Part shown: one piece after another, positions 15,017 to 30,500 of the stretch
Numbering within the stretch: position 1 is the first letter of the stretch
Layout of the letters: every line of letters begins with the position of its first letter
From: a bacterium
Lineage (GTDB): Bacteria > UBP7 > UBA6624
Assembly: GCA_014384545.1 (NCBI GenBank)
Contig: JACNFQ010000051.1
Location: 1 to 30,500, forward strand
Reading direction: 5' to 3'
DNA length: 30,500 nucleotides
Translations under genes and position numbers: made by a program
The notes under the pieces: generated by a model
Seen by the model: the letters and a program-made list of their open reading frames with translations, nothing else
Databases searched by the model: none
Told to the model about the DNA's origin: nothing

Positions 15017-17011
15017 TTAGAGGTGGACCACAAAACCTTTTTGCCCTGCCTTTGAATCGGGATCCTGAGAAACCCACCCCAGTTTTTCCATAAACATCAT
15101 CAACCGGGCTGCCTTGTTATACCCAATCCCAAACTGGCGTTGGAGACCACTGATGGAGAGCTTGTCCATCTCTCCAATCTCACCCCGAATCTGATCAAGG
15201 AAATCTTGGTCTTTCTTAGGTATCCCCTCTCTCATCCCCCCTCCACCACCGCCACCACTCTTGACCACAGTTGAGAGTGATTCATCGTACTTTGCCATGC
15301 CGAATGTGTCCCGCAAGTAATCCAAAACACCGTCAATCTCCTTCGTTTCAACCAAGGGCGCTTGACACCGAACGAGTTCCGGATGGTTGGGTCCATCAAA
15401 GTAAAGGTCGCCCCGACCTAGGAGGTCTTCAGCACCTTTCGTCCCAAAGATCGTAATACTGTCTGCCCGTGTGCCCAATCTAAAACTAATCTTCCCCGGT
15501 AGGTTGGCTTTGATACTCCCATCAAGTTTCTTTGAGTCGGGGCGTTGCATCGTAGCCACCAGGTGGATACCCGCTGCCCGGCTGCGCTCGGAGAGGTCGG
15601 ATAGGTATTCCTGTACTCGTCCTTTGCTCTGGTTGAGCAACGCACTTAGTTCTTCAATAACCACAACGATATAGGGCAAAGGGTCCTCTGCTCGACGGTT
15701 GTATTCTTTGAGGTTCTTTACACCCAAGTCGCCCAATAGGTCGTACCGTCGGTCGGTCTCACGGCAAGCCCAATCGAGTGCATTCAAGGCATGTTCAGTG
15801 GAGGTAATGATAGGGACCAACAGATGGGGAATATCCTTGTAGAGGGTAAGTTCTACCTTTTTCATATCCATGAGAATCAGACGGAGTTGGTCGGGGCTAT
15901 TCCGATAAATAAGGTTTAGGAGGAATGTATTGGCAAAGACGGACTTGCCTGATTGGGTAGCGCCGGCAATCAAGAGGTGGGGCATCTCGGCTAGGTTCTC
16001 CACAAGCAATCCCCCACTTACTTGCGTACCCATCACAAAAGCTAGGGGGTGGTCGTCGTGGGAAAGAGCTTCCGACTCAAGGACTTCTCTTAGCCTTAGT
16101 GTGCTCTTCTTCTTGCGAGGAATCTCAATCGCTATCGTTCCTTTCCCCACCACGGGGGCAATGACGCGGACTTTGCCCGGGCTAGAGACAGCCAAAGCGA
16201 TATTCTCGGCGGCACCCCGCACCTTTCCCAAGTTGGTGCTGTGGGGCACTTCTAGTTCAACCCGAATCACCGTTCGCCCCACATCGGTATTCAACCACAC
16301 AGGTTCTATTTGAGCGATATCTGCCAAGGTGTTCACAATCGCATCTGCAATCGCACTCAGTTCTCTCTTGGGTTCAGAGGGTGCTTTCTCTGCTTTGGTC
16401 AAGAGTTCTAGAGGTATTGCATAGGGGGGTGTTTCAGGAGATGTAGGGGATTCGGGGGAGGAAGCAACCTTCTTCTTTACCCTCTTCCTTCTCTTCTTGG
16501 GGGGCGAGTCTTGACTTTCAGGAAGGGTCGGAGGGACGGTTTGACGTTTTCTTCTTCGTTTGGTTTGAGTTGGGGGTCTGCTTTCGGATTCGCGTTCGTT
16601 TGTGGCACTAAAGAGGGTCCGCCAAAACGCGCCAAAGAAAGTCCAGTTGATGGCGATAATAGCGCCCCAATGGATCGTTTCAACCCCTCCAGACCCTAAG
16701 ATGTAGGTGAGCTTGTCCACGGTCCAATCGCCCATCGCTCCTCCCCATCCCAAACTCCCCAAAGCAAGCGGAAGGTAAGGGAGCAAAGCATACCGCCATT
16801 TCGATTGATCCTCGCCCCATGCTGAGAGAACGATTCCGAAGATGATCAAGGGCAAGAAAGGAGCAGAAGGACCAACGAGTGGGTACCAAGTACTCTTGTA
16901 GAGGCTACCCAAGGGGCCCAGCCAAGTCGTCGTAGTCGCTGTCAAGTGGAGGAGGATAAAGAAGATAACTCCGGGGAGAACCCCGCCATGCAACTTCTTG
17001 ATACTGCTCAT
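15017..17011 (-). CDS. ftsK: FtsK/SpoIIIE-family DNA translocase
   Basis: A 664-residue septal DNA pump. N-terminal membrane helices occupy about 11-135, with fewer clear helices than E. coli FtsK. A Lys/Arg/Pro/Ser-rich linker follows (about 140-200), then the alpha/beta motor domain and a C-terminal winged-helix gamma domain (SISGLQRQFGIGYNKAARLM, 619-638), preceded by an eight-Gly linker. The Walker A is GATQSGKS (350-357) where GATGSGKS is usual. The Walker B is IVVVIEEL (448-455) where VVDEL is usual, so the Asp is Glu453. Other blocks are intact (MDMKKVELTLY, SERSRAAGIHLVATMQRP, KISFRLGTRADS, GRGDLYF). It overlaps uppP by 4 nt (ATGA). Confidence 0.95.
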   Translation of the reverse strand: MSSIKKLHGGVLPGVIFFILLHLTATTTTWLGPLGSLYKSTWYPLVGPSAPFLPLIIFGIVLSAWGEDQSKWRYALLPYLPLALGSLGWGGAMGDWTVDKLTYILGSGGVETIHWGAIIAINWTFFGAFWRTLFSATNERESESRPPTQTKRRRKRQTVPPTLPESQDSPPKKRRKRVKKKVASSPESPTSPETPPYAIPLELLTKAEKAPSEPKRELSAIADAIVNTLADIAQIEPVWLNTDVGRTVIRVELEVPHSTNLGKVRGAAENIALAVSSPGKVRVIAPVVGKGTIAIEIPRKKKSTLRLREVLESEALSHDDHPLAFVMGTQVSGGLLVENLAEMPHLLIAGATQSGKSVFANTFLLNLIYRNSPDQLRLILMDMKKVELTLYKDIPHLLVPIITSTEHALNALDWACRETDRRYDLLGDLGVKNLKEYNRRAEDPLPYIVVVIEELSALLNQSKGRVQEYLSDLSERSRAAGIHLVATMQRPDSKKLDGSIKANLPGKISFRLGTRADSITIFGTKGAEDLLGRGDLYFDGPNHPELVRCQAPLVETKEIDGVLDYLRDTFGMAKYDESLSTVVKSGGGGGGGMREGIPKKDQDFLDQIRGEIGEMDKLSISGLQRQFGIGYNKAARLMMFMEKLGWVSQDPDSKAGQKGFVVHL

Positions 17012-17787
17012 CGACTGAGTGCCGCAACGATACCCAAAATGAGGCAGTAAAGCGCAAAGGGTTCCAAACGACGTTTAGGTACGAACTGGAACATGAATTT
17101 GATGGCGAAGATACCTGTGACCAGTGAGACCAGGAAACCTACAGCTGAAGGCAATGGATTGCTCTTGATGAATGAGAGAATCTCATTGCCATGGAGAATC
17201 GCACCCATCACAATGGGAGGAAAAGCCAACAAGAAAGCAAACCGCACAGATTCCTTCCTGTCAAGCCCTACCAATAACCCACCCGCAATCGTGGCACCGC
17301 TCCTAGAAACACCGGGGAGGATGGCAAAGGCTTGGAGCACCCCCAACATGATCCAGTCAAAGAACCTCGTGTGACGAAGGTGTCTGGGGGCTTTGGCTTT
17401 TCTAAGTTCGGCATAAACGAGTAAGAAAGCCGTAAAAACCAACCCCACGCCCGCAATTCGGGGCGTTGAAAAGGCATCGTCAAAAAAAGACCGAAAACCC
17501 GCATAGATGAGCCCCGTTGTGAGACTCGTAACGAGGAGGGCGTGGAACTCAATATTCCGGAATGGACTCTTGGAAACAACGACCTCCATAAGGTCCTTAC
17601 CGCGACAGAAAGTGAGGCTGACGAGCGTCCCCAAGTGAAGAATGGCGACCGTGGCAAGGTTCCGTTCGGGGTCCATACCCAAATAAGCACGCGCAATCGC
17701 CAAATGCCCCGAGCTTGAAATCGGTACAAACTCGGTAAGTCCTTGAAGCAAACCCAAGAATGCTTGTTGCCAAACGAGAGGCATCAT
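17008..17787 (-). CDS. uppP: undecaprenyl-diphosphatase (UppP/BacA)
   Basis: UppP recycles the undecaprenyl carrier by removing one phosphate, allowing new lipid I/II to be made, and is the classic bacitracin-resistance factor. Motifs are LLQGLTEFVPISSSGHLAIA near the N-terminus, and LPGVSRSGATIAGGLLVGLDRKESVRFAFLLAFP. The protein is strongly hydrophobic throughout, and its 259 residues match the family. The start is placed at ATG 17787 (the next codon is also ATG). The frame is open up to 17910, but those 41 codons overlap the end of yggS and lack the family N-terminus. Membership in a dcw run with ftsK is consistent with cell-wall function. Confidence 0.93.
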   Translation of the reverse strand: MMPLVWQQAFLGLLQGLTEFVPISSSGHLAIARAYLGMDPERNLATVAILHLGTLVSLTFCRGKDLMEVVVSKSPFRNIEFHALLVTSLTTGLIYAGFRSFFDDAFSTPRIAGVGLVFTAFLLVYAELRKAKAPRHLRHTRFFDWIMLGVLQAFAILPGVSRSGATIAGGLLVGLDRKESVRFAFLLAFPPIVMGAILHGNEILSFIKSNPLPSAVGFLVSLVTGIFAIKFMFQFVPKRRLEPFALYCLILGIVAALSR

Positions 17788-17797
17788 GAGGATTGCT

Positions 17798-18421
17798 TCA
17801 TCCGTTACGGTCTCCAAAGAGTGCTGTTCCCAACCGAACAAAGGTGGAACCTTCTTGCAAAGCAATCTGCCAATCTTGGCTCGTTCCCATAGAGAGCACG
17901 GGTGCGTCAAAAAGAGCGTCCCCTAGTTGGCGCAAATGGGCAAACGATGCCCGGTTTGTTTCAGGGTTTTTTGTGGGAGGGGGCATCGCCATCAACCCCT
18001 TCAAAGGAAGCTCGGGGTATTGGTCTCTCACCGAGTCCACAAAAGCGGGAAGTTCTTCTGGGGAAAGACCTCCCTTAGAAGATTCTCCCAAGTTGACCTC
18101 AATCAAGGTGTAGGGATAGGGAGGCTCCGACTTGACCAGTGCGGCTGCTTCTTTGAGCCGAAAGAGACTATGGACCCAAGAAAACCCCTGAGCGATCAAC
18201 TTTGCCTTGTTGGTCTGGATGCGTCCGATGAAATGCCACACAGCTTGGGTGGGGAGTAGGGTGCGGTTCTTATGTTCCTGAACGCGGTTTTCGCCCAGAT
18301 GAACAATCCCATTCTCTAGAGCCCAAGAGAGCTCTTCATCGGTTCTATGCTTTACAGCGGCAACGATGCTTCCTCTTCCCCCAGATTGGGTCTCTACTTC
18401 AGCAACGACATCCGAAATCAA
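17798..18421 (-). CDS. YggS/YlmE-family pyridoxal-phosphate-binding protein
   Basis: 207 residues of the PLP-homeostasis family (fold type III alanine-racemase-like barrel). Visible blocks are IVAAVKHRT (the PLP Lys is in AVKHR), HLGENRVQE, WHFIGRIQTNK, LIEVNLGESSKGG, GLMAMPPP, SMGTSQDW and FVRLGTALFG. This gene often lies next to ftsZ or the ylm genes in dcw-type clusters, as here. The start is TTG at 18421 within a TTGA overlap of the ftsZ stop. An AGGAG lies 11 nt upstream, inside one arm of an inverted repeat. Confidence 0.92.
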   Translation of the reverse strand: MISDVVAEVETQSGGRGSIVAAVKHRTDEELSWALENGIVHLGENRVQEHKNRTLLPTQAVWHFIGRIQTNKAKLIAQGFSWVHSLFRLKEAAALVKSEPPYPYTLIEVNLGESSKGGLSPEELPAFVDSVRDQYPELPLKGLMAMPPPTKNPETNRASFAHLRQLGDALFDAPVLSMGTSQDWQIALQEGSTFVRLGTALFGDRNG

Positions 18422-19443
18422 GATGCGTAGGACTCCTGATACCCCCGGAGTCGAGCTCCGGGTATTGCCTCAGGACTCAGCAAGAGAGAAAGGGTCATCT
18501 TTCCGTTCTTCTGTCTTTGAGCCAAGCGGACCGATCCCGTAAGACCATCGGGAGCGGGAGAAAGTCGAGCAGCCACAGATTCCACCATCGTCTTATGTTC
18601 TTCCGTCGTAATGCCTGGACCATCCACCCAGACAAGGGCGCGGTGGGGTGGACTACGAAGAGGGCGTAGGAAACCGTCTTTCACGGCGCCCTCTAAGGAT
18701 TCCTCCACTCGTTTCGCTCCTTCACCTGTCCCCGTCCCAAAATGGAGTTGTCCGCCAAATCGAAGGAACGACAAGATGTGTCCTGGATCAATCTCTAATG
18801 TTCCTGTCGTTTTGGGTGAGAGTGCATCCAGTAGGTGAACGAGGGTTTGATCAGCTGCATACCACGCATCCTCCAAGAATGTCCCCTTGGGTTGCGTATT
18901 CGCTAGACGATCGTTCAGAACAACCATGTAAGAGTTGAGGTCGTGGGAAAGGTATTCAAGAGTCTGTTCAGAACGGTCTACGGCGAGTGCACTCTCCATA
19001 GCAAGAGGTTGGATAAAGAACCCCAGCAGAATCGTGGAATCGTCGGTGGGGTCGGTGGTATCAGCCAATCGTTGTGTCAACCAGGGAAGGGTAGCCGAAC
19101 CTGTAGCACCCCCCAAAGAGCCCACCAAAACGATGAGATCGGTCCCCAAGGGGTTTGCCTCAAAGGGCAACGATTTCTCACTTTCAAGAAACAAGGCTAG
19201 TCCGTCAGCGTCATCGCCAGCGCCCCGCCCACCAAACCGCTTGTTGGCAAGAAGACAGGTGTGGATACCCGCACCACAAGAAGCAAGGGAATCTTGGCTG
19301 GTGTCAAGGGCGGTCATGACGACGGTAGAGCTAAGGTGACGGCGGAGTCGAAGGAGGGTGTTGCACCCTGCACCACCGACACCGATGATGTGGAGAGAGA
19401 GCCCCGGACGAGGGGCATCATCACCAAATAGATTCTCAGGCAC
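18418..19443 (-). CDS. ftsZ: divergent FtsZ-like GTPase
   Basis: A tubulin-family GTPase in the position of FtsZ, which forms the Z-ring at midcell. I start at GTG 19443: GGAG lies just upstream, it overlaps the FtsA-like stop by 8 nt, and the domain begins shortly after; product 341 residues. Family blocks in order are IIGVGGAGCNTL (19-30), LDTSQDSL (46-53, where NTDxQ(A/S)L is usual), GRGAGDDADG (72-81), VGSLGGATGSATLP (107-120), and a T7-loop region TGTLEIDPGHILSFL (213-227). Compared with GVGGGGGNA, GGGTGTGAAP and NxDxxD, several conserved residues are changed. In the T7 loop the triplet Asn-Asp-Asp reads Glu217-Asp219-His222, so one catalytic Asp is missing. There is no disordered linker or conserved C-terminal FtsA/ZipA-binding peptide; the protein ends soon after the C-terminal beta domain. 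Confidence 0.85.
   Translation of the reverse strand: MPENLFGDDAPRPGLSLHIIGVGGAGCNTLLRLRRHLSSTVVMTALDTSQDSLASCGAGIHTCLLANKRFGGRGAGDDADGLALFLESEKSLPFEANPLGTDLIVLVGSLGGATGSATLPWLTQRLADTTDPTDDSTILLGFFIQPLAMESALAVDRSEQTLEYLSHDLNSYMVVLNDRLANTQPKGTFLEDAWYAADQTLVHLLDALSPKTTGTLEIDPGHILSFLRFGGQLHFGTGTGEGAKRVEESLEGAVKDGFLRPLRSPPHRALVWVDGPGITTEEHKTMVESVAARLSPAPDGLTGSVRLAQRQKNGKMTLSLLLSPEAIPGARLRGYQESYAS
18433..18476 (-). promoter_or_regulatory. inverted repeat over the yggS ribosome site at the ftsZ 3' end
   Basis: CCCGGAG at 18444-18450 and CTCCGGG at 18456-18462 form a 7-bp stem with loop TCGAG. Flanking TCCTGA (18434-18439) and TCAGGA (18470-18475) extend it imperfectly. The minus-strand AGGAG that precedes yggS lies at 18437-18433, inside the distal arm, so a fold could hide it until ribosomes finishing ftsZ melt it. 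This is inference from pairing only. Confidence 0.45.
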
Positions 19444-20257
19444 ACGCTCTCCATCGAGGATCTGTCGCCAAAATCGCTGCTCGCCTAAAAGGAGCACCTG
19501 CTGGTGAGGTCCACCATCCCTTTTGCTCTGCCCACCGTTCACTTGCCGTTGCCGAAAGCACTTCCATCCCTGCCCATCTCTCAATCTCCTCGCGGGCATC
19601 GGGCGAATCGGGTGATTGCCCCGAAAGTTCCCAGCAGGAAATTCCTGCCGGTGCAAAGGGGGCAGACACCTCTTTGACCGTTTGGGTCCATTTCCTGAGT
19701 GCCACCGTGCGGAAACAACCCCGAGTTCCTCTCCCAACATTTCGGCTCAACTGCGTGGAGAGAGAATCTGAAAGCGTCTTGAAGGTCGGCAGGGTGAGAA
19801 CGAGGGGGAAAGGTCCCTCGGGGGTAGATACAGAAAGGTAAGTCGCTTGGGGACTGGTATCCACATGGAGGGTCGCTCGTCCGCTTCCCCCCACAAGGGC
19901 ATGGACCCAAGGTCGAGGGAGGGATCGTTTGGGAGCTGGTTGCGGTAAATGGAACCACCTATCCACTCGAATATATCCCCATTGGGTTGAACTGGGGGCG
20001 ATGGGTATGTTGTCGACCGACGATTCCAATACCCATCCATGCCCCTGCGACTGGGGGGGTTTCGGTTTGAGGAAAAAGGGCAACACCCTCGTTTGAGTTT
20101 CGATCGTTACCATTCCTTCAGAGACCACCTCGCGGAGTGCGACATTGAATGACCGAGCTCTTGGGGGTGTCCCCACCACTCTAAACCGGTTTTCATTCTG
20201 ACAAACATGGAGACAGGTGGCGGGGCGACCTGGTGTATGGACGACGACATTACGCAT
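19436..20257 (-). CDS. degenerate FtsA-like protein (position-based call)
   Basis: 273 residues between murB and ftsZ, where ftsQ and ftsA normally sit. Weak but ordered resemblance to FtsA is visible by eye. The N-terminal block RPATCLHVCQNENRFRVVGT and SFNVALREVVSEGMV parallels the FtsA strand pair and the linker helix. ATLHVDTSPQATYLSVS (128-144) parallels the phosphate-2 motif VDIGGGTTDIAVF, with Asp133 kept but the glycines lost. A late block EEIERWAGMEVLS followed by FRRAAILATDP parallels the FtsA end (AEELFG, then PxFATAxGLL). The usual ATP-binding glycines are missing and no C-terminal amphipathic helix is evident. It could be a non-ATPase FtsA remnant acting as a Z-ring anchor, or an unrelated protein. 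The start at ATG 20257 gives an 8-nt overlap with murB; a TTG at 20281 is the alternative. Confidence 0.5.
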   Translation of the reverse strand: MRNVVVHTPGRPATCLHVCQNENRFRVVGTPPRARSFNVALREVVSEGMVTIETQTRVLPFFLKPKPPQSQGHGWVLESSVDNIPIAPSSTQWGYIRVDRWFHLPQPAPKRSLPRPWVHALVGGSGRATLHVDTSPQATYLSVSTPEGPFPLVLTLPTFKTLSDSLSTQLSRNVGRGTRGCFRTVALRKWTQTVKEVSAPFAPAGISCWELSGQSPDSPDAREEIERWAGMEVLSATASERWAEQKGWWTSPAGAPFRRAAILATDPRWRACA

Positions 20258-21128
20258 GGGTAAAGGTGCCGAAAGTCTCAACTTCTAAGCCCAATCTCAC
20301 CCCAAACTGGGACTGGACTTGGTGGCGAACTTGATGGAGGAGCCGCCAGACTTCGGTGGCAGTGCCCCCCCCTGAGTTCAAGATAAAGTTAGCGTGTTTG
20401 TTGGAGACGGATGCACCACCCACCGTAGTCCCCTTGAAACCCGCTTCGTCGATAAGTCTACCGGCTGCGTCTCCTTCAGGGTTTCGAAAGATACATCCAG
20501 CAGAGGGTCCCGTGGGTTGGGACGAAAGGCGATGGTCTCGGGCAAGGCGTGACGCTTGGTGGACATCACTTCTTTTTCCGGCGACTAGGTCAAACGCGAC
20601 ATATTCAACGACCCAAGCATTCCTAAAGGGACTCGTTCGATACCCACGGGAAATCTCATGGGGAAGAAACCGTCTCGTTCTCCCTCCTGTGCGGGCACGC
20701 GCTTCAACCCAAGCAACCCTATCCAAGCAATCAATTCCTGCGGGACCTGCATTCGTGGCTGCCCATCCTCCAACGGATCCAGGCATCCCTCCAAACGGCT
20801 CCAGACCAGAAAGCCCTGCTTTTTCAGCGAAACGGAGAGCAGTTGCACCCCGCATGGCACCACCACATATCAGGGATGTCCCCTCCGTTCGAGACTCTTG
20901 AAACGCTTCTCCCAACCGAAGAATGGGCGGGACGCCTTCGTCAGCAATAAGGAGATTGCTCCCTGCCCCCAACATCAACCAAGGGGGAGAATCGCTAAGC
21001 CGTTCAAGAGCTTCACCAAGCCCTCTAGAAGATTGTGCTGTCAGGAGTTCAGGAGTTGCTCCTCCTACCTTGAGGGTAGTGAGGCGAGAGGTGGGAACGC
21101 CTTTTTGGATGGCTAGGTGGTTAGGCAA
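20250..21128 (-). CDS. murB: UDP-N-acetylenolpyruvoylglucosamine reductase
   Basis: A 292-residue flavoenzyme that reduces UDP-GlcNAc-enolpyruvate to UDP-MurNAc. FAD-binding blocks are LMLGAGSNLLIADEG, LEPFGGMPGSVGG and RGYRTSPFR. The catalytic block is SAGCIFRNPEGDAAGRLIDEAG, followed by NKHANFILN and a terminal LEVETFG. The proton-donor Ser of the canonical SAGSxFKNP is Cys here, a variant I believe occurs naturally in other MurB proteins. The start is TTG at 21128 with an 8-nt overlap of the murC stop. Confidence 0.95.
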   Translation of the reverse strand: MPNHLAIQKGVPTSRLTTLKVGGATPELLTAQSSRGLGEALERLSDSPPWLMLGAGSNLLIADEGVPPILRLGEAFQESRTEGTSLICGGAMRGATALRFAEKAGLSGLEPFGGMPGSVGGWAATNAGPAGIDCLDRVAWVEARARTGGRTRRFLPHEISRGYRTSPFRNAWVVEYVAFDLVAGKRSDVHQASRLARDHRLSSQPTGPSAGCIFRNPEGDAAGRLIDEAGFKGTTVGGASVSNKHANFILNSGGGTATEVWRLLHQVRHQVQSQFGVRLGLEVETFGTFTHA

Positions 21129-22515
21129 AGGAGTGTTCTCTCATGGTTGCTCGGGCAATCTCATCAATGGGGCCGGCTCCCAAAAAGAGGAGGATACGGT
21201 GGGGATCTTCGTCAATGTGAGCGATCTCTGTAGGTGTTGCTAAAGAGGCCTTCTTGCAGGCGCGCACGACAAGTGAACTATCGATTCCTTCTCGGGGTGC
21301 TTCACCTGCTAGGAAAAGGGGGAGGATATATGCCCTATCCACAGCGCTGTGGTTTAGTGCGTCCCCAAAGCCTTGCCAATGGACTTCCATTCGAGAACTG
21401 CGGTGGGGTTCAAAGACGACGGTGATGCACCGGTTGGGGTATTTCATAGATAAGGCATCAATCGCTTTACGAATAGCTGTGGGGTGGTGGGCGTAATCGG
21501 AGTAGATCGTACCCACTCTTGTAGCACCGAGTTTCTCCATCCGACGGTGAACACCCGGAAATTGAGCCAATCCAAGAGCAATCTCTTCTGCAGTCAACCC
21601 CAGCCTAATGCCCACGGCAATCGCTGAACGGGCATTTCTGGCGTTGTAAGCACCGTGGAACGGAAGCGAAAACTCCCCAAAGGGGATGCCGTAGTAAAGG
21701 ACACTTAGGAGCATCCCTCTTGGTCCTTCTTCGGCAATGAGACCCTCTAGCTGAGCGCGGTCCACCATCGCACCACAACCGAAAGTGTCAAGTGTCCTTA
21801 GTTGTGTGCGGAGGAGGCTTCCCATTCGGAGGCTACCTCGAAGAAGTAGACCGGTTCCTTCACCTTCATCTTGAGGAAGAACGAAGGTCGTCTTCGTTTG
21901 CCTAGAGGCCATAAATGCTAAGATTTTCTCTTGAATGGCATGGAGGTTCTGGTAGTGATCCACATGGTCAAAATCTAGGTTATTGACCACCAGCACATCA
22001 GGGTTCAGGTTTTGATACCCCAAATTGCTTTCATCAGCTTCAGCTACAAAGAGTGTGCCATCACCTTTGTAATACGACCCCTTCCCCATCACCTTTCCCC
22101 CTATGATGGCATCAGGGGTTCGGTGCGCCTCAGACAACATATGGGAGATCATCGAGGTAACCGTCGTCTTTCCGTGGGTTCCTGTAATCGCTATGCGTGT
22201 ACGAGCACCACCAAAGAGTTTGGAGAGGAAGTCTGGGCGTTCCATGACGGGAATACCTATTGCCCGTGCTTGGGCAATTTCGGGATTCGACTTGGGTACA
22301 GCGGTGGAGCAAACGAGCAAGTCTGCATTACGGGGCACCTGTCTGGCACGATGGTCTTGATAGCACTGGAATCCATCCCGCCGCAGACGATTGACCGCAA
22401 CGGGGTCGCGGTCCGAACCTGTTACCTTTACCCCTCCCTCTAAACACCATCTTGCAAGGGGTTCCATACCTGTTCCTCCCATCGCGGTAAAGTGGATTGA
22501 TCTAGGCAGGTTCAT
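21121..22515 (-). CDS. murC: UDP-N-acetylmuramate--L-alanine ligase
   Basis: 464 residues. MurC adds L-Ala to UDP-MurNAc using ATP. The N-terminal Rossmann domain is IHFTAMGGTGMEPLARW. The P-loop is ITGTHGKTTVTS (110-121). EADESNLGYQNLNPDVLVVNNLDFDHVDHY and YSDYAHHPTAIRKAIDA are further Mur-ligase blocks. The start is ATG 22515, with GGAG exactly 6 nt upstream, inside the end of murD (14-nt overlap). The upstream extension of the frame to 22596 lies inside murD and does not look like a family N-terminus. Confidence 0.96.
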   Translation of the reverse strand: MNLPRSIHFTAMGGTGMEPLARWCLEGGVKVTGSDRDPVAVNRLRRDGFQCYQDHRARQVPRNADLLVCSTAVPKSNPEIAQARAIGIPVMERPDFLSKLFGGARTRIAITGTHGKTTVTSMISHMLSEAHRTPDAIIGGKVMGKGSYYKGDGTLFVAEADESNLGYQNLNPDVLVVNNLDFDHVDHYQNLHAIQEKILAFMASRQTKTTFVLPQDEGEGTGLLLRGSLRMGSLLRTQLRTLDTFGCGAMVDRAQLEGLIAEEGPRGMLLSVLYYGIPFGEFSLPFHGAYNARNARSAIAVGIRLGLTAEEIALGLAQFPGVHRRMEKLGATRVGTIYSDYAHHPTAIRKAIDALSMKYPNRCITVVFEPHRSSRMEVHWQGFGDALNHSAVDRAYILPLFLAGEAPREGIDSSLVVRACKKASLATPTEIAHIDEDPHRILLFLGAGPIDEIARATMREHSFA

Positions 22516-23737
22516 AAGCAACTCCGGAATCTGTAAAATGTGTGACCAAGTCTTTGAAATGGTCGCCTCTTTGGGCATAACTGGTGTAGGAATCAAAACT
22601 AGCTGTACCCGGTGAAAGGAGAATCGTTGTCCCCTTAGGGAGGAGGGAAGCGTTTTCTACGCAATCCTCCAAATCTTGTGCAGGTCGACTCTCTAGGTGG
22701 GGAATCTCGCTCGCTTCTTGGGATAATCTCTCACCCACTTCCCCAAAGGGAAAAAGAGTGATGCCTCTTTGGGCAATCTCCCCCAAGAGCTCTCCATAAT
22801 CTAGCTCTTTCTCGGACCCACCCATCAAGAGGACGGCGGGAGACTTGATTCGGTCAAGCGCAGCCATCGTCGCTAGGGGAGAAGTCGCCTTGCTGTCGTT
22901 GATCCAGATCTTACCGTCCGCCGTTTCAAGACGCTCTAAACGATGGGGTAGGGGTTGGAAGGTATTGATTACATGGGCTGTTTTCTTGGGGTCTAGATCG
23001 AGAAGTTTTCCCGTCAAGTAAGCCGCTTCAATCGTCTCATCAAAGAGTTGGGGGTTCTCTAAGGCGTGCGGCGTCATGTAATCCCCAGCCAAGAGATGAG
23101 TGGTCGCTGTTCCCGGCATCGACTCAACGGGGACGGAGATACCTAAGAGGCGATGGTCTTCGCGCTCCTGATGGGCAAAGAGAGCTTCCTTGGCATCTTG
23201 GTAATCGGCAAAGTTTGGGTGCCAATCAAGGTGGTTTTCGTCCAAGTTTAGGTGTATCGCAACCTGGGGATGGAAATCTCCCAACCGTCGTGCTTGAGCT
23301 GATGATATCTCTACGACCCAAGCGTCCCGTTCATCACCAAGGGTGTCAAGGGGAGACGTGCCACAGTTGCCCACCATGTGGTTCGATACCCCAGATGCTT
23401 CAAGGATATCAGAGAGCAAGTGGACGAGGGTCGTTTTACCAGCGGTGCCCGTTACAGCAATCGTTAGCTTAGGAGCGTGAGGAACAGCCAATGCGATGTC
23501 ACAGAGGATGGGGATGCCTTGTTTTTTGGCAGCCTCCAAAAGGGGGTGGTTCTCCTTGATACCTGGAGAAGCGACCAGTGAAACACACCCTTCCCAGTTT
23601 CCTAGGAAAGGAGGGTGGTCTTCTATTGCTTCTGAATGGTCGTCCATAACGAAGTATTCAAGATCGTTCTCTTTTAGATAACGGACAGCCGCCATCCCCG
23701 AGATTCCTAAGCCAAAAACGAGTGTCCAGTTCTTCAT
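22502..23737 (-). CDS. murD: UDP-N-acetylmuramoyl-L-alanine--D-glutamate ligase
   Basis: 411 residues. MurD adds D-Glu to UDP-MurNAc-L-Ala. The N-terminus is LVFGLGISGMAAVRYL, the P-loop is VTGTAGKTTL (95-104), and NLDENHLDWH follows the central domain. The C-terminal ligase blocks are WINDSKATSPLA, LLMGGSEKELDY (usually GGxDKxxDF) and LSPGTASFDSYTSYAQRGD (usually LSPACASFDxxxxFxxRG). The substitutions of Asp by Glu in GGSEK and Cys by Thr in the last block are mild. The start is the ATG of an ATGA overlap with mraY. ftsW, which usually follows murD, is absent; murC comes directly after. Confidence 0.95.
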   Translation of the reverse strand: MKNWTLVFGLGISGMAAVRYLKENDLEYFVMDDHSEAIEDHPPFLGNWEGCVSLVASPGIKENHPLLEAAKKQGIPILCDIALAVPHAPKLTIAVTGTAGKTTLVHLLSDILEASGVSNHMVGNCGTSPLDTLGDERDAWVVEISSAQARRLGDFHPQVAIHLNLDENHLDWHPNFADYQDAKEALFAHQEREDHRLLGISVPVESMPGTATTHLLAGDYMTPHALENPQLFDETIEAAYLTGKLLDLDPKKTAHVINTFQPLPHRLERLETADGKIWINDSKATSPLATMAALDRIKSPAVLLMGGSEKELDYGELLGEIAQRGITLFPFGEVGERLSQEASEIPHLESRPAQDLEDCVENASLLPKGTTILLSPGTASFDSYTSYAQRGDHFKDLVTHFTDSGVAYEPA

Positions 23738-24684
23738 ACCCGCCACCCTGCTAAGACGAATGAGAGAGCGAACTGGGCCAGTCCGAATGTCCAAGCGATT
23801 CTTGGTTCGGACCAGTTGCTCTTTTCCAGATGGTGGTGGAAGGGAGCCATCTTGAAGGGTCGTTTCCCGGTCAAGCGGAACGAACCTACCTGAATAACGA
23901 CGCTAGCGAGTTCTAGGAGAGGAATCGCCAAGAGTCCTAGGGCTAAGAAGGGCTGAACTTGGAGGACCAACAACGCAAGGATGCCCATCCAAGCGCCCAA
24001 GAGATAAGAGCCTGATTCCCCCATAAAGAGCTTAGCAGGGTGGCGGTTGAGAGGGAACCATGCAAGGAGGAGTAACCCCAAGGGGAGGATGCGCCAAGCC
24101 GTATCATCGTTGGCTAGAGTAGGTGCAAAGAGAACGGCAGCCGCCGTTACGCCCACAAAGGTGCCCATCAGTGTGGAGGCAAGTAGACCATCAGCTCCAT
24201 CGGTAAAGTTCACTCCATTGACAGAAGCCCCAAGAATAACGGCTCCCGCGAGGATTCCACCCCATCCCCAATCAGGGAGGAGTGTAGCACCCAAGTAACC
24301 ACCGATGATGAGCTGGAAGGGGAGTCGGTACCTTGCCAGGAGACCAGTCCCCGTTCGCAGCTTCTGGATGTCGTCCCCCAGCCCCACCAAAAAAAGAGTG
24401 ATTCCAGAATAGAGAATAGGGAGCATAATCCCCCCAATAGGCGAACCAGAAGGTTCAACAAGGAGGGCAAAAGCGATGAAGGCGGGCAAGAAAGCCCACC
24501 CAGCAGCCGTCGGTGTACCATCCTTCACTTGATGAGATTGGGGACCTTGATCTCGGATAGGCTGACCCCAGTTTCTCGCTTTAGCCACACGGAGATGGAG
24601 CAGAAGAAACCCAAAAGAGAGGAAGAAGAGACCACCCGATAGGACGATACCGATAGGGGTGGGTGGTCCCCAAGGAAGGGACAT
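23734..24684 (-). CDS. mraY: phospho-N-acetylmuramoyl-pentapeptide-transferase (lipid I synthase)
   Basis: A 316-residue integral membrane enzyme that transfers phospho-MurNAc-pentapeptide to undecaprenyl phosphate. Blocks are HQVKDGTPTAAGW (51-63), GLGDDIQKL (101-109) with Asp104/Asp105, NFTDGADGLLA (159-169), LFMGESGSYLLG (219-230) and FKMAPFHHHLEKSNWSEPRI (277-296). The fourth block is normally FMGDTGS; its Asp, a Mg2+ ligand in the Aquifex enzyme, is Glu223 here. All other signature residues are present. The start at ATG 24684 shares its A with the last base of the murF TGA (1-nt overlap). Confidence 0.95.
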   Translation of the reverse strand: MSLPWGPPTPIGIVLSGGLFFLSFGFLLLHLRVAKARNWGQPIRDQGPQSHQVKDGTPTAAGWAFLPAFIAFALLVEPSGSPIGGIMLPILYSGITLFLVGLGDDIQKLRTGTGLLARYRLPFQLIIGGYLGATLLPDWGWGGILAGAVILGASVNGVNFTDGADGLLASTLMGTFVGVTAAAVLFAPTLANDDTAWRILPLGLLLLAWFPLNRHPAKLFMGESGSYLLGAWMGILALLVLQVQPFLALGLLAIPLLELASVVIQVGSFRLTGKRPFKMAPFHHHLEKSNWSEPRIAWTFGLAQFALSFVLAGWRV

Positions 24685-26042
24685 CAGGCGGCAGCCCCCA
24701 AGAGGGCGTTTACAGCGCGATCCAGGTGGTTGGCTCGGCTCCCCTTTACCAAGACAACCCAACCGTCACCAGACCATTCCTTGAGGGTTTGAACCAAGTC
24801 GTCCACATGGGAGAATGATCCGCCTGGCAACCCTGTCTCTTGACTTGCCAATGCAGCTAGGGGACCGACGGACCAAAGGCGTTTGAAACCTTGGCGTGCT
24901 GCCATTCGCCCAAGGGCAATGTGGGTGCCTGCAGCTCCTGCCCCCAGTTCCAACATATCCCCAAGGATGAGCGCTAGGGGTCGGTTCTTGGCAATCGATT
25001 GCGCCCAAAGGATGCTATCTCGGGTACTCGTAAGACCTGCGTTATACCCATCATCCAAAAGGAGACCTTCTTGAGGGAGGTGATGGACCTCTTTTCGGTG
25101 AGGAAGGGGGGTTACCCCAGTCAACCGTTGGGCTGCTTCACCAAGAGGAATACCGTACGAAAGGGCGGCTCCAAGGGCTAAGAGTGCGTTTTCTACTTGG
25201 AATGTCCCTGGTAAGCGGAGCTTTACCGAATGGGAGCCCTCTTTAGTGTGGGCAATGAACTGGGGGCAAAGGAGTTCGTCATATTGGACATGGGATGCCC
25301 AGATATCCCCGTGGACGCCGCACCGAATCCGGCGGGCTTGTCCCGAGCGTGCATCGAGGACTCTGTGGTGGGTGTGGGTGGTGGAAAGGACGACGGTTTG
25401 GTTCTTTTTCCAGCATCGAGAAAGAGAGGACTTTTCTTCAATGACGCCTTCAATGCCACCAAGGTGCTCTCCATGGCTGACACAGAGTGGGGTGTAGAGC
25501 GCCGTATTCGGATGGGCGAGTTTTCGGAGGTAGTCGATGTCTCCGGGTTTCCCGGCACCCATTTCGGCAACCAAGAACTCATCCTTCTCTTCCACTGATA
25601 ACAGGGTATGTGGCAAACCTACTTCGTTGTTGTAGGACGCCTTGGCAGAGGCAACGGTACTGGGTGTACCCAGAGCCGCTGCAGTCAACTCTTTGACCGT
25701 GCTTTTCCCCAGCGAGCCCGTTACGGCGATGACGGGTCCGCCCCATGCCTTTCTAGAAGCAGCACCAAGTCTGCCGTAAGCGGCAAGGGTGTCGGGTACA
25801 CGAAGGGTCCAAACATTTTCAGGGGCAGGGGTGCCGAGGGGTAGTAGGACGCCAGCAGCCCCTTTTTGGAGTGCGGCTGCCGTGTAGTCCACGCCCTTGT
25901 GATTGGGACCATCCAGCGCGACGAAAAGCTCTCCCTTGTTTAGGGTGCGCGAATCGGTTGACACCGAAAGGGGGTGGGGTGGTGGGGTGCCTACAGAATC
26001 TCGCCCCACAGCGTCTTGTATCTGTTCGGGGGTTAGGCGCAT
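24684..26042 (-). CDS. murF: UDP-MurNAc-tripeptide--D-alanyl-D-alanine ligase
   Basis: 452 residues. MurF adds D-Ala-D-Ala to UDP-MurNAc-tripeptide. Motifs are STDSRTLNKGELFVAL, the P-loop VTGSLGKSTVKE (107-118; GKTT is more usual than GKST), SYNNEVGLPHTLL, VAEMGAGKPGDI, DDGYNAGLTSTRDSI (usually DxYNANPxS) and VLVKGSRANHLD. The length is normal. Its ATG lies inside the end of murE (10-nt overlap). Confidence 0.96.
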   Translation of the reverse strand: MRLTPEQIQDAVGRDSVGTPPPHPLSVSTDSRTLNKGELFVALDGPNHKGVDYTAAALQKGAAGVLLPLGTPAPENVWTLRVPDTLAAYGRLGAASRKAWGGPVIAVTGSLGKSTVKELTAAALGTPSTVASAKASYNNEVGLPHTLLSVEEKDEFLVAEMGAGKPGDIDYLRKLAHPNTALYTPLCVSHGEHLGGIEGVIEEKSSLSRCWKKNQTVVLSTTHTHHRVLDARSGQARRIRCGVHGDIWASHVQYDELLCPQFIAHTKEGSHSVKLRLPGTFQVENALLALGAALSYGIPLGEAAQRLTGVTPLPHRKEVHHLPQEGLLLDDGYNAGLTSTRDSILWAQSIAKNRPLALILGDMLELGAGAAGTHIALGRMAARQGFKRLWSVGPLAALASQETGLPGGSFSHVDDLVQTLKEWSGDGWVVLVKGSRANHLDRAVNALLGAAA

Positions 26043-27508
26043 TTGGTTGAAATCTCCTGAATCGTTTGGCGGGCGATACCGTAATCGGACTGTCTGTGGT
26101 GTGTCGAACCGATAATCTGAACCGATTCGTGCCCCTTCCCGGCTAGGAGGATAGTATCTCCCGGGGAGGCACGCTCAATCGCTCGTCGAATCGCTGTAGG
26201 GCGGTCAGGAATCGCCTCCATCCTCTCTCTGGCTTCAGGTAGGAGCCCTTCGACCATTTCATCTATGATTTCTTGGGGCTCTTCGTTCCGCGGATTATCA
26301 CTTGTCAGGATTGCCCTGTGGGCTTGGAGCGCGGCTCTAGCCATAAGGGGGCGTTTCCCCTTGTCTCGGTCTCCGCCACAACCCACAACGACGGTAAGTT
26401 GCCCTTCGGTCAAGGGAAGAAGAGAGGCGATGGAGTTTTCAAGGGCATCGGGAGTATGGGCATAGTCCACAATCAGATTGAACGGAAGGTCGGTCGTTAT
26501 TGAATCCATCCGTCCTTTGATGGGGCGTAGAGAGGAGAGAGCAGTAAGTGAAGCTTCTCTGGGGATACCCAGCCCTTCAGCAAGGGCGAGAGCGGTCAGG
26601 ATATTCTCTCTCTGGAAGCTACCCACCAAGCGGGTCGTTAGAGGCGCCGTTGAGCCGTCGGGAAAATGGACTAGGAGCGAAATGCCCTTGAGGGAGTCCT
26701 CGGTCAGTTCAGCGTCCAAGTTCCCACCTTTGCCCCAAGTGATCCAGTGGAGATCGGGTCGCATCTCTTGGAGGCGATTCGTCCACCCAGTGGCGTCTTT
26801 GGCGACAGCTAGAGATCCCGCAGTTAGACCCAAAAAGAGGTTGGCCTTTGCCAGGAAGTAGTTCTCCAGCGAGCCGTGGTAATCCAGATGGTCTCGGGTA
26901 AGTCCGGTTAGAGCCGCGGCGATCGGTCTTACGGGACCAAGCCGTCCTTGATCCAGCCCGTGGCTACTACATTCCATGACAGCCCATCCCACCCCACGGT
27001 GAGAGAATGATTCAAGGGCGTGTGCGGTGTCGGCAGGGGCGGGCGTCGTTAGACTGTTGGGTCCGTGGTATCCAGGGGCATCCATCCCTAGGGTGCCGAT
27101 CGTTCCCGTCTTCCTACCCGCAGCTGACATCATCGCTGCCACCATGTGGGTCGTTGTGGTCTTTCCATCGGTACCTGTGATGCCCACCACTTTGACACGC
27201 TCTAGGGTCGTTTTGTGGAATCGTCCTAAGAGGAGAGTGAGGAGGGATTGGGGGTCGCCCAAGACATGGGGAATCGTGATCGTTTCAAGGGGATGAGGTG
27301 TGACAACGGCACAAGCACCCCGTCGGGCGGCATCGCGTGCGTATAGGGGGGTGCGCGAAAGAGGTGCACGGCAAACAAAGAGCGATCCAGGGCGTGCACA
27401 CCTGCTGTCTTCAACGACATGACGCACAAAAGGACCTAGGGAGGTGCCACCCCCCCCAGGAGTATGGATTTGGGCGGGAAGCCCGTGGGTCAGTTGCGCG
27501 AGTCGCAC
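26033..27508 (-). CDS. murE: UDP-MurNAc-L-alanyl-D-glutamate--2,6-diaminopimelate ligase
   Basis: 491 residues. MurE adds the third amino acid of the stem peptide. P-loop ITGTDGKTTTTH (110-121), YHGSLENYFLAKANLF with the carbamylated Lys221 position, VDYAHTPDALE, VVGCGGDRDKGKRP, DNPR (404-407) and LLAGKGHE are all present. DNPR is the motif of meso-DAP-adding MurE rather than Lys-adding enzymes, so the wall is predicted to be meso-DAP type. The start is GTG at 27508, whose first base is the last base of the preceding TAG (TAGTG). ftsI, which normally precedes murE, is absent and only a 38-residue gene is there. Confidence 0.96.
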   Translation of the reverse strand: MRLAQLTHGLPAQIHTPGGGGTSLGPFVRHVVEDSRCARPGSLFVCRAPLSRTPLYARDAARRGACAVVTPHPLETITIPHVLGDPQSLLTLLLGRFHKTTLERVKVVGITGTDGKTTTTHMVAAMMSAAGRKTGTIGTLGMDAPGYHGPNSLTTPAPADTAHALESFSHRGVGWAVMECSSHGLDQGRLGPVRPIAAALTGLTRDHLDYHGSLENYFLAKANLFLGLTAGSLAVAKDATGWTNRLQEMRPDLHWITWGKGGNLDAELTEDSLKGISLLVHFPDGSTAPLTTRLVGSFQRENILTALALAEGLGIPREASLTALSSLRPIKGRMDSITTDLPFNLIVDYAHTPDALENSIASLLPLTEGQLTVVVGCGGDRDKGKRPLMARAALQAHRAILTSDNPRNEEPQEIIDEMVEGLLPEARERMEAIPDRPTAIRRAIERASPGDTILLAGKGHESVQIIGSTHHRQSDYGIARQTIQEISTKCA

Positions 27509-27624
27509 TAGACGACGAGGCTAGAAAGAACGAAGTAGCCTGTCAGGACGACAAGGAAAAAGACCGGAACGAGAAGCTCAAAGAAAACGTCAAAAGTATG
27601 GGGCCGTCGGTTCGTATTCATCAT
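27508..27624 (-). CDS. 38-residue single-pass membrane protein in the ftsL/ftsI position
   Basis: A small gene between rsmH and murE: ATG at 27624-27622 (or the next codon, also ATG) to TAG at 27510-27508. Its ATG overlaps the rsmH stop in ATGA, and its TAG overlaps the murE GTG in TAGTG. A full AAGGAG ribosome site lies 8 nt before the ATG, the best in the whole run. The protein has a short basic N-terminus (MMNTNRRPHTFD) and one hydrophobic segment (VFFELLVPVFFLVVLTGYF), then a few residues (VLSSLVV). The orientation rule predicts N-in. In other bacteria this slot holds ftsL, a single-pass coiled-coil protein. Here no periplasmic coiled coil exists, so it is not a normal FtsL. Function unknown. 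Confidence 0.8.
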   Translation of the reverse strand: MMNTNRRPHTFDVFFELLVPVFFLVVLTGYFVLSSLVV

Positions 27625-28502
27625 GTATGAATCTCCTTATGTTGGATTGGGTAAGCAGTCGCTGGCGACCACTCAATGGCACGCAATCGCGCCGAGCGAG
27701 ATCGAGGGTTCTCCTTGATCTCACTGGGCGTGGGTCTTAGGGGCTTGGGGGTCAGAATCGTTCCTATCCCCATTCGTTCCCACCTCTTGAAACTCCTCTT
27801 CACAGGGAGGTCTTCGTTTTGGTGCCAAGCAATCAACACAGCGATACCGCCTCTGTTGAGGAGTAAGGGTAGGGCGGCAAGGAGGGCACATAGTTCCCCC
27901 TCCTCGTCGTTGACAGCACGGCGCAGCGCCATGAAGGCACGCGTAGCGGGGTGTCGTTTGTGGGTTCCTGGTTCGCTAAGGAGCCTAGCCAAGTCTTGGC
28001 AGTCCATTCTTTCCAATCGGTCGCGGTTCTTGTCAACCCGCGATGAAAGGAGGGAGGCGGCGCGAACACCCCCCTCACAAAAGAGTCTCTTGATACCCTC
28101 TTTGTCAAGACGCAGAAGGAGGTCAATAGCGGTCTCAGTCGTTGTGGGATCAAGACGCATGTCGGGGGGTTCAGTGCTGTGGAAAGACATCCCATCCCCT
28201 TCAAGTTGGTCCAGTCGAATGCCGAGGTCGGCAAGGACACCGTCAAACTTTCTTTCGCCCAAGAGGGCAGGAAGGTCGCTGTGCTTGCCGAGGATCGTCT
28301 CCAATTTGGGGAGGCGTTTTTCGGTTTTGGCCAATGCTTGAGCATCCAAGTCCAAGCCTGTAATGGTGAACCCTGCGTCCAAGAGCGCTTTGGCGTGTCC
28401 GCCATGTCCCAAGGTGGCATCAAGGATTCGGGCGCCTTTCGGAAGACGGTGGAAAAACTCCACTGTCTCCCGTAGTAGGGCGCTAGGGTGATACTCATCC
28501 AC
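27621..28502 (-). CDS. rsmH: 16S rRNA (cytosine(1402)-N(4))-methyltransferase
   Basis: 293 residues (MraW/RsmH). It methylates C1402 of 16S rRNA using S-adenosylmethionine. Blocks are YHPSALLRETVEFF, LDATLGHGGHAKALL (SAM binding), DMRLDPTT, HKRHPATRAFMALRRAVNDE and NPRSRSARLRAIEW. The start is GTG at 28502, with GAGG 6 nt upstream and an 8-nt overlap of the mraZ stop; a TTG one codon earlier is possible but poorly spaced from that site. Confidence 0.95.
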   Translation of the reverse strand: MDEYHPSALLRETVEFFHRLPKGARILDATLGHGGHAKALLDAGFTITGLDLDAQALAKTEKRLPKLETILGKHSDLPALLGERKFDGVLADLGIRLDQLEGDGMSFHSTEPPDMRLDPTTTETAIDLLLRLDKEGIKRLFCEGGVRAASLLSSRVDKNRDRLERMDCQDLARLLSEPGTHKRHPATRAFMALRRAVNDEEGELCALLAALPLLLNRGGIAVLIAWHQNEDLPVKRSFKRWERMGIGTILTPKPLRPTPSEIKENPRSRSARLRAIEWSPATAYPIQHKEIHT

Positions 28503-28977
28503 CAAAGCCCTCTTGCGTAGGGATATCCAATAGTGCCATGCGCTCGTCCCAACTTAGTTCTTGGATAATCCCTTCTCGTTCGGCTTGGCGGTTTTTCCAA
28601 GATTCGGGACTTAGCAGTTTGATCGAGACCGAACCCACAATCACGGCGTTATCGGTGATGCCGGCTTCCCCCAGCATCTCGGGGGGTAAGGTGATGCGAC
28701 CCGAGGGGTCAAAGCGCCGCAAAACAGCACGCTCTTCAATCCCTGAAACGATTGCAGAGACTTCCCGTGCACTTCGCTTTAGACGCCGCAGCAAACTGCG
28801 TAGCCCATTTAACCATCCTTCTTGTTGGTTAGGTTCCATTAGGAGTAGAGGATGAAACGGGTCTAAATCATTCACAAAAGCCACGACCGTATCCCCTGTA
28901 AGAATGCGCCTGCGGTCTGCAGGAACGAGGAGTCGACCCGAAGGTTCAACCGCATGAAAGATGCCTTTAGTTGCCAT
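28495..28977 (-). CDS. mraZ: transcriptional regulator MraZ
   Basis: 160 residues with two SpoVT-AbrB-like halves: GIFHAVEPSGRLLVPADRRR near the N-terminus and ERAVLRRFDPSGRITLPPEM further on. MraZ binds repeats upstream of its own gene and controls the dcw operon. The start at ATG 28977 places the first AbrB motif at the very N-terminus as usual. An earlier in-frame ATG at 29103 would cover the whole intergenic region. It heads the long minus-strand run, so it is the expected regulator of the cluster. Confidence 0.94.
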   Translation of the reverse strand: MATKGIFHAVEPSGRLLVPADRRRILTGDTVVAFVNDLDPFHPLLLMEPNQQEGWLNGLRSLLRRLKRSAREVSAIVSGIEERAVLRRFDPSGRITLPPEMLGEAGITDNAVIVGSVSIKLLSPESWKNRQAEREGIIQELSWDERMALLDIPTQEGFGG

Positions 28978-29129
28978 TTTCTGCCTGTTTCTACCAACAT
29001 CATAAACGATAATCTCGCCTAGATAGGGTGGAACAATCTTCAATGGGGTAGATTTTATCCCGTTTATGGCTAAACCCTCCCAAATTGGGAAAAAACCGAC
29101 CATGCTAGAGCCCAGAATAGAATCCCTTT
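28978..29129. promoter_or_regulatory. divergent mraZ / lpxK promoter region
   Basis: 152 bp between divergent genes. It contains a palindrome with 6-bp arms around one base, TCCCAA-A-TTGGGA, at 29078-29090. On the minus strand a TAAAAT (complement of 29052-29057) is a possible -10 for mraZ, though no good -35 is at standard spacing. GGGA-type words (TTGGGAGGG and ACGGGATAA, about 20 nt apart) may be MraZ-binding repeats, since MraZ is known to bind TGGG-like repeats in E. coli, but this is only a suggestion. Confidence 0.45.

Positions 29130-30440: not shown

Positions 30441-30500
<60 letters not shown>

Follow-up and report, generated by a model that had tools for sequence, protein, structure and literature searches.

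By position, profile and fold, the gene at positions 18418..19443 (minus strand) of the window, the 30,500-nucleotide stretch of DNA analysed here, is the ftsZ orthologue of the reduced-genome marine UBP7. It encodes a protein of 341 amino acids from a GTG start codon, with a ribosome-binding-like GGAG sequence upstream, and is the sole FtsZ/tubulin gene found in its genome. With most of the known catalytic losses combined in one protein, the guanine pocket kept and the gene under purifying selection, the product is best read as a nucleotide-binding FtsZ that hydrolyses GTP slowly or not at all, and we give slightly better than an even chance to its serving as a static scaffold for a pared-down division machinery. 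The window is contig C19 of a genome of 1.39 Mb that is 79% complete. UBP7, or Candidatus Bimafiota, comprises six genomes of 0.83–1.39 Mb from saline and marine water (PMC11382960). Only two genomes (G001 and G002; sister records PBAU01000003.1 and DLTY01000053.1) were available as relatives below domain rank, both from one other genus of the same family. The comparisons within the phylum are therefore based on three incomplete genomes, two of them from one genus.

The gene lies in a contiguous dcw cluster on the minus strand. The cluster opens with a mraZ-like gene (28495..29103), assigned by position and by a syntenic gene in G001 with no NCBIfam match, followed by rsmH (27621..28505). The genes murE (26033..27508), murF (24684..26042), mraY (23734..24762) and murD (22502..23794), all assigned by NCBIfam profiles, precede murC (21121..22596) and murB (20250..21128; TIGR00179, over cut-off). 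An open reading frame of 273 residues, ORF_X (19436..20257), lies between murB and ftsZ, where ftsA would normally be. Downstream are a yggS-type gene (17798..18421; TIGR00044) that overlaps the ftsZ stop, uppP for undecaprenyl-diphosphatase (17008..17910; profile match) and a gene for an ftsK-type DNA translocase (15017..17011; NF007615, E 1.8e-88). Neither ftsL nor ftsI was found between rsmH and murE, and neither ftsW nor murG between murD and murC; ddl, ftsQ and ftsA are likewise absent from the cluster in the window. The sister cluster has the same set minus rsmH and ORF_X, and ftsL, ftsI, ftsW, ftsQ and ftsA are absent from it in both genera. In both, on long contigs, ftsZ lies downstream of murB, which is the ftsZ position of dcw clusters. 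The gene order of the region is common to the two genera despite a GC gap of about 16–20 points (53% versus 33–37%), and the place of rsmH between mraZ and murE is empty in the sister genus (G001, L032 2216–2461). A run of CCN proline codons fills the last ~70 bases before position 30500 on the plus strand; the C-terminus of the syntenic protein in the sister genus shows nothing unusual, and the run is possibly a low-complexity or assembly artefact.

Profile searches identified the product as a member of the FtsZ/tubulin family. The window protein matched PF00091 with 49.5 bits against a cut-off of 33, and all three UBP7 proteins matched this profile. The score against the ftsZ equivalog model TIGR00065 was 76.7 bits, which is 26% of the cut-off of 295.2 and does not reach it, whereas the wall-synthesis proteins of the same cluster score at roughly 70–155% of their own cut-offs. 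Comparison with hhalign gave 99.1% to canonical FtsZ. The AF2 model (pTM 0.81) has the FtsZ fold with both domains and superposes on S. aureus FtsZ with Z 32.9 and an rmsd of 2.6 over 299 aligned residues, a likeness towards which the canonical FtsZs in the alignment behind the model pull it. Its confidence is low (pLDDT < 50) at residues 212–216, just before T7, and at the C-terminus. The best PDB matches by sequence and by structure were FtsZ, with CetZ2 (4b45) at Z 29.0. The FtsZ-like domain order described in the first-pass annotation agrees with the PF00091 match, the dcw position and the fold. As its score falls short of the equivalog model and it has neither the T4 and T7 signatures nor the tail, the protein is best named a divergent FtsZ homologue and not a typical member. 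A weak phosphate-loop match to Tubulin_2 (PF13809; residues 19–41, E 0.005) was also obtained. It reached 16.6 bits against a cut-off of 27 and covered 23 residues (profile positions 2–24 of 356), while the gene's position and the similarity along the whole protein favour FtsZ; membership of Tubulin_2 was rejected.

The first-pass annotation had offered two readings of the gene, a second, non-canonical tubulin or a heavily modified Z-ring. The former finds no support, as each of the three UBP7 genomes showed a single PF00091 gene, at the ftsZ position. A canonical ftsZ could in principle lie in the missing parts of the assemblies, which are 79, 86 and 62% complete, so that the gene in the window would be an accessory paralogue. 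Nevertheless, a search for a second canonical ftsZ elsewhere in the genome found none in the assembly, nor in either sister genome, and no second tubulin-family gene was seen in the three assemblies. If the gaps are independent, such a gene would have escaped all three assemblies with a probability of about 1% (0.21 x 0.14 x 0.38). Together with the ftsZ position held in both genera on long contigs, this makes an accessory paralogue very improbable. No viral relatives of the UBP7 FtsZ were found. Viral contigs of IMG/VR (up to ~66 kb; L061–L085) carry, as putative phage genes, FtsZ relatives whose T4 and T7 motifs are canonical.

The divergence of the protein is large. In a survey of 231 genomes, of which 221 had a PF00091 match, the best match was at E 1e-12 to 1e-13 for UBP7 and at 2.1e-29 or lower for every other matching genome. 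Ten of the 231 genomes (85% complete or more) had no PF00091 match, and FtsZ-free genomes are thus not rare in this sample. Among 16 genes compared between the two UBP7 genera, FtsZ was the least conserved, with 34.6% identity; canonical FtsZs of different families have 42–51% identity to the reference row. Such divergence, along with the weak coding score of the adjoining ORF_X, might suggest a pseudogene, a frameshift or an assembly artefact. The sister genomes refute this reading, to which we attach next to no probability. The frame is intact in three independent assemblies, and the alignment of the sister genes runs unbroken across T7 to the same downstream operon junction. An NxDxxD motif or a tail peptide was absent from every minus-strand frame between positions 18000 and 19800, so that no nearby frame restores the motif. 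Moreover, ftsZ had a dN/dS of 0.045 between the two sister genomes, the second lowest among nine genes compared, which argues that it is no pseudogene.

The GTPase site of FtsZ is interfacial, the T7 loop of one subunit meeting the nucleotide of the next. In the window protein, the T2, T4 and T7 loops are altered. The T2 loop reads DTSQD (residues 47–51; 19291..19305, minus strand) in place of NTDxQ, with S. aureus D46 changed to S and Q48 to D. The T4 tubulin-signature loop reads GGATGSA (residues 111–117; 19093..19113, minus strand) in place of GGGTGTG. The longer block GGATGSATLP, given in the first-pass annotation as the replacement of GGGTGTGAAP, is an exact match at residues 111–120; the sister proteins have GYGSGSA here, which is also non-canonical. 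Where canonical FtsZ has its catalytic arginine (S. aureus R143, numbered R142 in the reference row), the window protein has A154 (18982..18984, minus strand) and the sisters have S. The T7 loop reads E217-I-D219-P-G-H222 (18778..18795, minus strand) in place of NxDxxD.

Alignment with 16 canonical FtsZs of different families supported the reading of the T7 Asn-Asp-Asp as Glu-Asp-His and placed D219 at E. coli D209 and H222 at D212. One T7 acid (D212) is therefore gone, along with the Asn (N207 to E). The first-pass annotation had called the T7 loop broken and noted that the family normally needs both acidic residues; of these the second is lost, and the first is kept as D219. The close relatives also lack the second T7 Asp (N-L-D-K-A-N). 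Crystallography of S. aureus FtsZ singled out six conserved residues of the interface, D46, Q48, R143, N208, D210 and D213, as key to association or hydrolysis; D210 (E. coli D209) positions the catalytic water (PMC8936486). At these positions UBP7 has S, D/S, A/S, E/N, D and H/N, respectively. Four of the six (D46, Q48, R143 and D213) are lost in all three UBP7 genomes, and D210 is the sole one common to all, whereas all six, NxDxxD included, are present in every one of 29 canonical FtsZ controls. One row (L097), whose true frame reads NLDFAD at T7, was left out of this comparison. With D46, Q48 and R143 also gone, the erosion is wider than had been claimed. Over the 58 columns invariant in the 16 canonical FtsZs, the three UBP7 proteins all keep 17 and all lack 27, and D46, Q48, R143 and D213 are among the latter.

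All three UBP7 proteins retain E138, N165 and D186 of the guanine pocket. In addition, the T7–H8 segment is conserved between the genera at D219, I223, L224, F226, R228 and GQxHFGxG. Thus the pocket and the interface region remain constrained, whereas the set of catalytic residues has been lost. The three proteins share D47-T48-S49 and H234-F235 unchanged. This invariance and the low dN/dS fit remodelling under selection better than random decay, and D219, the equivalent of the water-positioning residue, is kept throughout. The active site might have been rebuilt, with D47 (former N43), the DTS triplet, H234 and D219 hydrolysing GTP in another geometry and a Z-ring that still treadmills. Nevertheless, the sisters have no substitute for the catalytic arginine or for the K+-site glutamine, and H222 is replaced there by N, so that the T7 replacement is not conserved even within the phylum. 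A rebuilt site is accordingly considered unlikely.

The effects of single substitutions at the interfacial positions are known from other bacteria. In S. aureus, the changes D46A, R143Q, N208L, D210N and D213N suppress assembly, while Q48A and R143K lower the GTPase activity about 6-fold and stabilize filaments (PMC8936486). E. coli D212A retains 7% of the wild-type GTPase activity (PMC8142252), and the vortices formed by D212G are static and do not treadmill (PMC7320174). Where residues lost in UBP7 FtsZ have been mutated in the laboratory, the proteins are inactive or static, and by analogy the GTPase activity of the UBP7 protein would be reduced or absent. The protein keeps its nucleotide pocket, with the interfacial GTPase site largely dismantled, and as a static scaffold would most likely self-associate longitudinally in a nucleotide-dependent manner with very slow or no hydrolysis. 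The resulting static or slowly exchanging filaments could serve as a positional scaffold for FtsK and a SEDS–PBP2 pair, and would be attached to the membrane through something other than FtsA or SepF. The chief point against filaments is the loss of assembly in S. aureus mutants of the D46A type. As D46A, R143Q and D213N each stop assembly of the S. aureus protein, one that carries all of the changes may not polymerize by the known interface.

The C-terminal end of the protein is short. Residues 327–341 and the stop (18418..18465, minus strand) are modelled with pLDDT < 50 and contain neither a linker nor the conserved tail peptide. These last ~15 residues weakly resemble an IPxFLR tail peptide. 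The sister FtsZs end right after the last core strand, and the absence of a C-terminal tail noted at first pass holds in both genera.

ORF_X overlaps both murB and ftsZ by 8 bp, has a weak coding score and is absent from the sister genus; it had no Pfam match and no FtsA match. A degenerate FtsA, as its position and two beta-hairpin repeats might indicate, gained little support from a profile comparison that gave 0.4% probability, and a single-sequence structure model reached a pLDDT of 34. ORF_X is possibly a remnant or a fast-evolving replacement of FtsA.

Other division and wall-synthesis partners were sought by family (profile) searches of the three incomplete UBP7 genomes, and the absences given here are to be read on that basis. 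FtsA was not found. Pfam matches to FtsA were present in all three genomes, and the two proteins that were classified, those of the window's genome and of G001, proved to be MreB, the only FtsA-family match. The nucleotide motifs of MreB are preserved, and its scores are those of MreB. SepF and a FtsQ-type POTRA domain were not found in these searches. FtsK is present, as is MurG outside the dcw cluster. Each genome has one SEDS protein, which is nearer to RodA than to FtsW, though weakly so in G001 (165.9 versus 163.8 bits), and the matches to PBP transpeptidases were PBP2 and PBP1A only, with one in G002. A second pair of SEDS and class-B PBP (FtsW/FtsI) was not found in the three genomes, and a single SEDS–PBP2 pair might serve elongation and division alike. 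The single SEDS gene adjoins tpiA/pgk-like genes and not mreB and PBP2 (L038 1417–2553, L040 1459–2571). A DivIC/FtsB match occurred in G001 only (L100, G001:C12), between enolase-like and amidase-like genes; this stretch has 28% GC compared with 33–37% elsewhere and is possibly a contaminating contig. As for a dynamin-like replacement, just a sub-threshold match of 37 residues was obtained in G000, and this candidate was dropped; the long frame that holds it (G000:C5) resembles, on visual inspection, a two-domain GTPase of the Der type.

This gene set bears on whether FtsZ still drives division in UBP7. MreB, FtsK and RodA–PBP2 might organize constriction, with the FtsZ remnant in another scaffold or regulatory role. 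The presence of FtsK, the nucleotide motifs kept by MreB and the failure to find FtsA, SepF, FtsQ or a SEDS/PBP pair specific to division would suit such an arrangement. It has a parallel in the FtsZ-less Chlamydiae, where the division plane has been proposed to be set by MreB together with FtsK (PMC5147048). Nevertheless, the gene stays in the dcw operon under strong purifying selection, and Chlamydiae themselves retain FtsI (PMC5147048); we regard a role outside division as quite unlikely. The heavily modified Z-ring remains the better supported of the two options first proposed, in view of the single FtsZ and the partners not found; the ring and a role in division are both putative. Either the cells divide with a non-dynamic Z-ring or FtsZ serves something else. 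That the whole phylum divides with a single nucleotide-binding, non-hydrolysing FtsZ and does so without FtsA, SepF, FtsQ and a dedicated FtsW–FtsI pair is a tentative extension, which we judge somewhat less than evenly probable.

GTP hydrolysis and treadmilling of FtsZ hold a central place in accounts of bacterial division. If the catalytic interface, FtsA, FtsQ and the division SEDS/PBP pair are truly lost, UBP7 is a natural experiment on the dispensable parts of the Z-ring, and with a non-hydrolysing FtsZ its septation would need neither treadmilling nor the classical divisome. We know of no natural lone FtsZ with such a set of losses; a search of the open-licence literature found none, nor any paper on division in UBP7, including biochemistry or imaging.

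Relative to canonical FtsZ (TIGR00065, PF00091), the UBP7 protein shares the dcw position, the fold, the glycine-rich phosphate loop, the guanine pocket and D209, but lacks the equivalents of D46, Q48, R143 and D213, the canonical T4 loop, and the C-terminal linker and tail. Eukaryotic tubulin offers a natural case of a longitudinal interface without hydrolysis, at its non-exchangeable (N) site. In beta-tubulin a Lys stands where alpha-tubulin has the catalytic Glu254 in T7, and the GTP thus covered is not hydrolysed. Tubulin alternates hydrolysing and non-hydrolysing interfaces, whereas in UBP7 all of them would be non-hydrolysing. The E. coli mutants D212A and D212G (FtsZ2) share the loss of the second T7 Asp. 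These are single laboratory changes in a protein that is intact elsewhere, while the loss in UBP7 is natural, fixed in the phylum as sampled and accompanied by three further catalytic losses. The FtsZ-less Chlamydiae and Planctomycetes resemble UBP7 in their reduced division gene set, and Chlamydiae keep MreB and FtsK (PMC5147048, PMC12283558). They have lost FtsZ outright, with FtsI kept in Chlamydiae, whereas in UBP7 FtsZ persists in eroded form and a second SEDS/PBP pair was not found. The state of UBP7 may be an intermediate towards the FtsZ-free division of these groups.

A partial parallel was found in family f35 (G036, G178 and G235; loci L093/L103, L102 and L104, respectively), which is unrelated to UBP7. 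Its FtsZ is also a lone one, with T7 reading K/S-I-D-F-G-S, so that the second Asp is replaced by Ser and the Asn by Lys or Ser, and R143 is replaced by Lys. Unlike UBP7, the family keeps D46, an adjacent FtsA upstream and a tail-like end, and is nearer to canonical FtsZ, with about 101–130 bits against PF00091. In G235 (L104), a stop and a frame change interrupt the ftsZ reading frame. The partial erosion in f35 indicates that T7 has probably been eroded on more than one occasion, most extremely of the two in UBP7.
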